This document shows, one piece after another, positions 35,224 through 36,639 of a stretch of 64,000 bases of DNA. The DNA is from Candidatus Peribacteria bacterium. Lineage in GTDB: Bacteria; Patescibacteriota; Gracilibacteria; Peribacterales; Peribacteraceae. The translations under genes were made by a program, and so were the position numbers. Below the pieces are notes generated by a model. The model searched no databases. It was not told the DNA's origin and saw only the letters and a list, made by a program, of their open reading frames with translations. Where the stretch lies: positions 1 through 64,000 of the forward strand of contig JAHFJM010000003.1 in the NCBI GenBank assembly GCA_023245935.1. Reading direction: 5' to 3'. How positions within the stretch are numbered: position 1 is the first letter of the stretch; the number at the start of each line of letters is the position of its first letter.

Positions 35224-35763
35224 TTACCGAATGAGATTGAGAAACTCTTGCCTCGTCCTCGCATCCCGCTTGAAACTGCCTGCCACAGAACTCGTGACCG
35301 CAATCGAGTGTTGCTTCTCAACTCCTCGCATCATCATGCAGAAGTGACTCGCTTCAATGACAACACCGATCCCAATCGGCTTTAATACCTGCTGCAGCGC
35401 ATTGCAGATCTCCTGCCCGAGCCGTTCTTGTGTCTGCAGGCGGCGCGCGAACATATCGATGATGCGCGGGATTTTACTGAGACCGATGACATGCTTGCTC
35501 GGGATGTAGCCGACGTGCACTTTGCCGGAGAAGGGCAGCAGATGGTGCTCGCAGAGCGAGTAGCACTCGATGTCCTTCACGATGATCATCCCGTCGGTGT
35601 CAGCCGGGAAGAGCGCACCGTTCACGACGTTCTTGAGATCCAGATCGTATCCCGACGTCAGAAATTCCATGGCATCGCTGCAGCGCTTCGGCGTGCGCTT
35701 GAGCCCGGGGCGATTGCTGTCTTCGCCGATACGCTTGAGGAGGGTTTTGTAGAGCTGTTCCAT
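35224..35763 (-). CDS. folE: GTP cyclohydrolase I
   Basis: First step of folate synthesis: GTP to dihydroneopterin triphosphate. 179 residues from the ATG at 35763. Motifs: zinc ligands in [11 protein letters not shown] and [38 protein letters not shown], and [12 protein letters not shown] at the end. An in-frame TTG at 35796 would add 11 residues and is less likely; TATACT ends 9 nt before the ATG. Last gene of a folB-folK-folE run. Confidence 0.95.
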
Positions 35764-35792: not shown

Positions 35793-36278
35793 TCAAAAAA
35801 GTTGTATGTTCGTTTTTCTACATTCCTGCCCTTTCACGTCCGGCAAATACGACTGCAATGTTCGGTGAAAGATCGGATGCATGAGTTCGCCTCCGCCAAG
35901 TTCCAGGAGCGGCTCCAGAACGAATCTCCGTTCATGAAGTTTCGGATGCGGGAGAATCGGGTCTTCTGTTCGCACTTCTTCGCCAACCAAAAGCAAATCC
36001 AGATCAATCGTTCTCGGTCCGTACCGGAAGGGGGGAGATTTCTTCAGTGTTTTTTCAATCTTCTGCAATTTCTTCAGAATCTCAGTCGGCGTCTCATCAC
36101 TTTCAAATCGACATGCGGCATTCAGAAAATCCGCCTGGTCATTTACCTCCATCGCTTTCGATCGCCAGACAGAAGAGAAGCTGATGCCGGACCATTGCTC
36201 CTGTAGCAGTGCCCCTGCAGCCCTCAGATTCGTCTCAGGATCGATGTTCGAGCCTAGGGCGACAAAGACTGTTGCTAT
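35793..36278 (-). CDS. folK: HPPK (6-hydroxymethyl-dihydropterin pyrophosphokinase) with no standard start codon
   Basis: Transfers pyrophosphate from ATP to hydroxymethyl-dihydropterin. The reading frame encodes [18 protein letters not shown] at the N-terminus, FLNAACRF, the HPPK signature [13 protein letters not shown], and [16 protein letters not shown]. The full domain needs the frame to begin near 36278, but no ATG, GTG, TTG or CTG occurs between the upstream in-frame stop and the conserved VALGSN. ATA at 36278-36276 overlaps the folB stop as ATAG and would give 161 residues, the normal HPPK size. The first ATG (36152) would delete the N-terminal third, including ALGSN. Alternatives: a -1 frameshift from folB, or a sequence error. 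Confidence 0.85.
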
Positions 36279-36619
36279 GGTCGTACGATCGTAACAGAGG
36301 CGGATTCGAGGGGGAGCATCGGTTTCTTCGTGACGGTCACCTTCACACCCCCCTTAGGTTTGAAGTTCTTCAGGATCGTCGCAGCAATATCTTCTGCAAA
36401 ACGTTCGATCGTTTTTCGTTCGGTATTCGCCAGAATCTGAACTTCGTCCGTGACGTCTGCGTAATCGAGACCGTGAGAAACATCATCACTCATCGCAACT
36501 TGTTTCAGAGGAAGAAACATCTCGACCGTCACGAGAATTTCCTGTGCAGTGTTTCGTTCATCATCCGGAACGCCGATAGAAGTCTGAACACGAATGTTCC
36601 GGAGAAGGATGGAGTCCAT
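36275..36619 (-). CDS. folB: Dihydroneopterin aldolase
   Basis: Cleaves dihydroneopterin to hydroxymethyl-dihydropterin, the FolK substrate. 114 residues with RNIRVQTSIGVPDDER (FolB IGVxxxER-type start), LDYADVTDEV, ERKTIERFAEDIA and VKVTVTKKPMLPLESASVTI at the C-terminus. TACACT (36631-36626) ends 6 nt before the ATG without an RBS, so the operon likely begins here with a leaderless message. Its stop overlaps the folK frame. Confidence 0.93.
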   Translation of the reverse strand: MDSILLRNIRVQTSIGVPDDERNTAQEILVTVEMFLPLKQVAMSDDVSHGLDYADVTDEVQILANTERKTIERFAEDIAATILKNFKPKGGVKVTVTKKPMLPLESASVTIVRP

Positions 36620-36639
36620 AGGGTCAGTGTACCATCTGC

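Follow-up and report, generated by a model that had tools for sequence, protein, structure and literature searches.

An ATAG overlap between folB and folK points to a conserved AUA start codon in a family of Peribacteria

The window, a stretch of 64,000 nucleotides from a Candidatus Peribacteria bacterium (contig JAHFJM010000003.1 of assembly GCA_023245935.1), contains the genes folB, folK and folE one after the other (Table 1). On the minus strand, the folK frame runs without interruption from 36353, just past a TAA that lies within folB (36356-36354), to a stop codon whose last base is 35793. The first-pass annotation reported that this frame has no ATG, GTG, TTG or CTG between that TAA and the conserved VALGSN, and a rereading of the minus strand agrees with this; the next in-frame ATG (36152-36150) is found 42 codons beyond ATA, past the GSN motif. 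Counted from the ATA that had been put forward as giving the right length, the product matches both TIGR01498 folK (113.9 bits, cut-off 54.1) and PF01288 (110.3 bits, cut-off 25.7) from profile position 1, i.e., it is a full-length HPPK enzyme match above the curated cut-offs. In the comparison with the relative G001, folK showed a dN of 0.35 and a dS of about 2.1, with dN far under dS. The upstream product, FolB, scored 63.0 bits with the TIGR00525 folB equivalog, which is under the cut-off of 72.15. The junction of the two genes is a stop-start overlap on one strand with the geometry of the ATGA type, but with ATA instead of ATG, GTG or TTG, and the two frames differ by -1 exactly at the folB stop.

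Table 1. Positions of the genes and signals around the folB-folK junction in the window.
Feature	Position	Strand	Remarks
folK (HPPK)	35793..36278	-	161 aa counted from ATA; intact; purifying selection (profile matches and dN/dS)
Proposed folK start codon ATA	36276..36278	-	same codon in 19/47 family loci; ATG there in 5 relatives
folB stop TAG	36275..36277	-	overlaps ATA as 4-base ATAG; TAG in 19/19 ATA genomes
Final FolB codon CCA (Pro)	36278..36280	-	supplies the A of ATA as its third base
folB (dihydroneopterin aldolase), upstream partner of folK	36275..36619	-	114 aa; PF02152 85 bits, TIGR00526 77.2 bits
TACACT, -10-like hexamer	36626..36631	-	6 bases 5' of folB ATG; putative leaderless-type promoter
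folE (GTP cyclohydrolase I), gene after folK	35224..35763	-	own ATG; TATACT 9 bases upstream; TIGR00063 241 bits

The comparison of folK among relatives that the first-pass annotation had recommended was carried out on 74 genomes of the family, a group of uncultured bacteria with small genomes that is here coextensive with the order. HPPK is present in 49 of these genomes, and 47 loci have a readable N-terminus; G024, whose contig starts within the gene, and G066, in which the N-terminus is missing, were left out. A related-locus search yielded only two distant folK loci, which were not used. The junction is ATAG in 19 of the 47 loci, ATGA in five and GTGA in one, and the other 22 show different arrangements, three of them with no same-strand folB in the stretch examined. 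The 19 ATAG loci belong to species-level genomes of nine genera (g1, g6, g11, g12, g16, g17, g20, g26 and g57). In these loci ATA sits seven codons before LGSN, exactly where the five ATGA relatives have their ATG; therefore, ATA takes the place of ATG in an ordinary stop-start overlap. No standard start is found from the folB stop to LGSN in 17 of the 19, where the next ATG, GTG or TTG comes 17 to 66 codons in; the exceptions are G094, with an ATG two codons after ATA, and G096, with a GTG one codon after it. In 13 of the 19 the entire frame before LGSN is devoid of ATG, GTG, TTG and CTG.

On the FolB+FolK tree the ATAG label requires at least six changes, indicating that ATAG is old, repeatedly gained or repeatedly lost, although the tree does not say which. 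A search for ATAG at a fixed spacing from LGSN, which cases spaced otherwise would escape, matched 20 genomes among the 353 of the class. These comprise the 19 family genomes with ATAG at folK, plus G087, which lacks an HPPK match. When the phylum was sampled evenly, the same pattern turned up in 8 of 379 genomes, all from this family. An error of sequencing or assembly, or a decayed folK, has practically no probability left: the assembly is in eight contigs and may be a draft, but the recurrence of ATAG in 19 species-level genomes refutes the base error that had been listed among the options for this locus, and an HPPK intact above curated cut-offs, with dN well under dS, likewise rules out a pseudogene. 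Within a genus otherwise made up of ATAG loci, G093 (L053) has lost the overlap and its folK is again without a standard start; the 5' region reads TAA TAC GTA ATA CTT AAT ATT GTA TAC ATT GGC and is followed by IGSN, and either ATA or ATT could serve as the start.

The A of ATA is also the third base of a fourfold-degenerate proline codon of FolB, where any base would suit the protein. Among the 19 ATAG genomes it is the only invariant column of the 34 fourfold columns of FolB, the runner-up reaching 79%. CCA is used in all 19 ATAG genomes and in the four ATGA genomes whose folB ends in RP, whereas RP-ending folB genes without overlap use CCT, CCA, CCA, CCC, CCG and CCT; genome-wide, CCA represents 9.9% of the proline codons, and in G081, which has the GTGA junction, folB uses CCG, as GTG demands. 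The Fisher test of these counts (23/23 versus 2/6) gave p 6e-4, and eight pairs on separate tree paths all keep the third base, with a chance of 8e-4 given their own fourfold identity of 0.24 to 0.70; both tests comprise few independent events and were chosen once the pattern had been seen. Codons -6 to -4 vary freely, and ATA is the sole invariant start-like codon among the 19. This bears on the idea that folK starts at some other nearby near-cognate codon, such as GTC, ATC or ACG. Non-standard starts of this kind do exist, as in the GTC of Streptomyces sigR (PMC5472188), and infC of this family seems to use CTG; nevertheless, from the folB stop to LGSN no other codon is start-like in all 19 loci, and we consider such a start very improbable.

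The stop that overlaps ATA is TAG in 19 of 19 genomes and never TAA, even though stops are most often TAA (38.6%). A mere tolerance of AUA would also allow ATAA, so it does not account for the constant TAG, or for the G that follows ATA, and this counts against an AUA start. The invariant TAG would better suit a slow stop, as would be expected if a -1 frameshift at CCA-TAG, before termination, produced a FolB-FolK fusion. The frames are indeed related by -1 precisely at the stop, and TAG is followed by C in 13 of the 19 loci and by A in 5, both of which are weak termination contexts. On the other hand, the proline tRNA would have to shift from CCA to NCC, and since the preceding base is A in 9, C in 8 and G in 2, it would mispair in 11 of 19 loci; the 76 bases downstream, folded for 8 of the 19 loci, give structures no more stable than those of shuffled versions (z from -1.45 to 1.34). 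Thus neither slippery re-pairing, in these 11 of 19, nor a stimulatory structure, in the 8 folded, was found as hallmark of a programmed -1 frameshift. Furthermore, the same codon is a plain ATG within ATGA in five relatives, and a fusion would need no ATA over CTA, GTA or TTA, yet the A is invariant. The fusion, which the first-pass annotation had also offered, is disfavoured by these data and we hold it to be improbable.

Another aspect of the junction is the absence of a Shine-Dalgarno sequence: GGAG, GAGG and AGGA were not found 20 to 5 bases upstream of ATA in any of the 19 loci. In the genome that contains the window Shine-Dalgarno-like tetramers precede 7.2% of 473 genes versus 11.4% of random places, revealing that this signal is hardly used. 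The tail of its 16S rRNA reads GGAUGGAACAUCUCCUUACC, and those of G013 and G029 end in ACACUUCCUUACC; the 16S 3' ends inspected (L238, L236-L241) are without the usual GGAUCACCUCC, the tail being GGAUGGAACAUCUCCUUACC or a CUUCC version of it. The motif TANNNT occurs just before the start of 178 of 475 conserved genes in this genome versus 1% of random places, and leaderless transcription is likely to be widespread in it, judging from these motifs. A genome so rich in apparent leaderless promoters would favour a separate leaderless transcript of folK, driven by a promoter within folB and with its 5' end at ATA or close to it, and a TANNNT lies at -15 in 10 of the 19 loci. However, the motif is missing in the other nine, it is 3 bases farther out than the usual -12 to -7 of this genome, it follows from the V-T-I codons of FolB, and a conserved overlap would be purposeless in such an arrangement; this origin of the folK message therefore has a very low probability.

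The anticodon stem of the initiator tRNA is GC/GC/GC almost universally. The one encoded in this genome (L090:13414-13490, plus strand) has instead AU/GC/GC, and the same stem was found in 62 of the 63 family genomes matched by the pattern, with 11 family genomes giving no match; GC/GC/GC was seen in G016 and in three matches outside the family. Among the 19 ATA genomes, 18 have AU/GC/GC, and G092 gave no match. IF3 is present in 72 of the 74 genomes. The relaxed initiation of mycoplasmas involves a replaced IF3 R131 and a uS9 tail that reads TKR; in contrast, the arginine aligned with E. coli R131 is kept in all six family IF3 proteins that were aligned, so that the IF3 change of mycoplasmas is absent, a point against an AUA start, and uS9 ends in AKR in the two genomes read. 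Mycoplasma initiation with an unconventional initiator tRNA was reportedly the subject of Ayyub et al. 2018. The unconventional initiator stems of mycoplasmas resemble those of the family in that A-U replaces the first of the three G-C pairs (PMC10568206).

The infC gene was examined in 24 genomes (L211-L234; the copy of the genome studied here is on C6), in 10 of which the motif search gave no usable start; in the 14 alignable ones the apparent start is CTG in 10, GTG in two and TTG in two, so that infC probably starts at CUG in the family, as far as these alignments tell. A tRNA-Ile with anticodon UAU is encoded at L090:14252-14328 (minus strand), and only two CAU tRNAs occur in the stretches scanned, where the usual lysidine tRNA-Ile2 seems to be absent.

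Non-standard starts were also sought elsewhere in the genome. Among 127 overlapping pairs of conserved ORFs there are 23 in-frame ATAG or ATAA overlaps, and folK is the only one of these without ATG, GTG or TTG within 16 codons. In a change-point scan covering 486 conserved genes, 29 stood out as having no standard start nearby, and most of these were judged by eye to be misplaced change points; infC was not flagged, which reveals that the scan misses cases. A gene of the WecB/TagA/CpsF type (L110:10104, plus strand; TIGR00696, 140.7 bits) begins ATA GCC TCT CGC GTC behind GATAAT, with no conserved same-strand gene overlapping it; a pattern search matched five other genomes, which all have ATG at this place, and gave no match in 68 of the 74. 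This gene likely starts at ATA, as judged by eye, and as it has no overlap it supports the notion that AUA is usable here without one. On C5 of the same genome, the conserved protein encoded by the ORF at 75159-76290 (plus strand) seems to start at CTG, and at TTG in G001.

Taken together, an intact folK, the lack of a standard start, the ATAG overlap, an A conserved over nine genera, the ATG at the same codon in relatives and the lack of a Shine-Dalgarno sequence form the sequence basis on which we think it likely that the ribosome that has just ended folB starts folK at AUA, and that folK very probably uses this start across nine genera. The ATAG overlap claimed by the first-pass annotation is thus confirmed, and the suggestion that an AUA start mimics ATGA coupling gained comparative support from the five ATG-bearing relatives. 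Following termination at UAG, the ribosome, or only the 30S subunit, would step back one base; the initiator tRNA (anticodon CAU) would then pair with AUA through a third-position mismatch, and translation would resume. The derived initiation apparatus, with its AU/GC/GC initiator tRNA, may render AUA acceptable. The codon would probably hold FolK well below the level of FolB, and since the A-to-G change that creates ATG also turns TAG into TGG, destroying the folB stop, a weak AUA start is hard to lose. In E. coli, when recycling factor is lost, non-standard codons behind a stop can serve ribosomes as starts, a result that makes AUA plausible for a post-termination ribosome (PMC2268962).

A bolder proposal, to which we give a small chance, is that the order employs AUA as a genuine start codon, enabled by the AU/GC/GC initiator tRNA together with initiation without Shine-Dalgarno sequences, and that the AUA of folK serves to sense folate. 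The model for such a feedback is the control that IF3 exerts on its own AUU start. A low supply of one-carbon units would reduce formylation and rRNA methylation, start-codon scrutiny would become laxer, and AUA initiation, and with it folate synthesis, would increase. The proposal builds on a connection that has been reported between one-carbon metabolism and the fidelity of initiation (PMC7949028).

Several known systems share features with the preferred reading, reinitiation on AUA. Stop-start overlaps of the ATGA type with termination-reinitiation have been described, and they share with folB-folK the 4-base overlap, a downstream gene that begins one base back from the stop and a pair of genes from one pathway, but differ in that an AUA start and a UAG stop are present here; the available text of that paper contains neither ATAG nor AUAG (PMC6728339). 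Natural AUA starts are known in Staphylococcus aureus for infC, ccpN and citZ. They reach about 10% of the activity of AUG, and that of ccpN, which is conserved, attains as much as 30% in rich medium; folK would likewise be a natural AUA start in a bacterium, but an extended Shine-Dalgarno motif was reported for the non-standard starts of S. aureus, whereas the AUA of folK has none and lies inside a stop codon (PMC13009471). In Streptomyces, the GTC start of sigR is repressed by IF3, and as proposed for folK, an odd start lowers one member of a coupled pair; unlike folK, sigR uses GTC, has a ribosome binding site and is the first gene of its pair (PMC5472188). In mitochondria, a CAU initiator tRNA reads AUA through 5-formylcytidine at C34, which parallels the proposed pairing of a CAU initiator with the AUA of folK (PMC7949028).

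AUA starts in bacteria and ATGA overlaps are thus each known; what appears to be new is that the two are united in a conserved ATAG, and this in bacteria whose initiation apparatus is derived. Neither an ATAG start overlap nor an AUA start of folK was found in the open-licence literature, which is not proof of absence from print. AUA does not normally begin proteins, and the conserved AUA start proposed here points to an unusual way of beginning protein synthesis. As a rule, gene finders recognise no starts other than ATG, GTG and TTG; hence the folK of these genomes is likely either to be overlooked or to be trimmed to an internal start and so lose its substrate-binding N-terminus, which would make the folate pathway seem broken. 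An AUA kept inside a stop codon over nine genera also amounts to a natural experiment on how start codons are judged when ribosomes reinitiate, in a lineage that departs from the textbook in its initiator tRNA, its 16S tail and its leaders.
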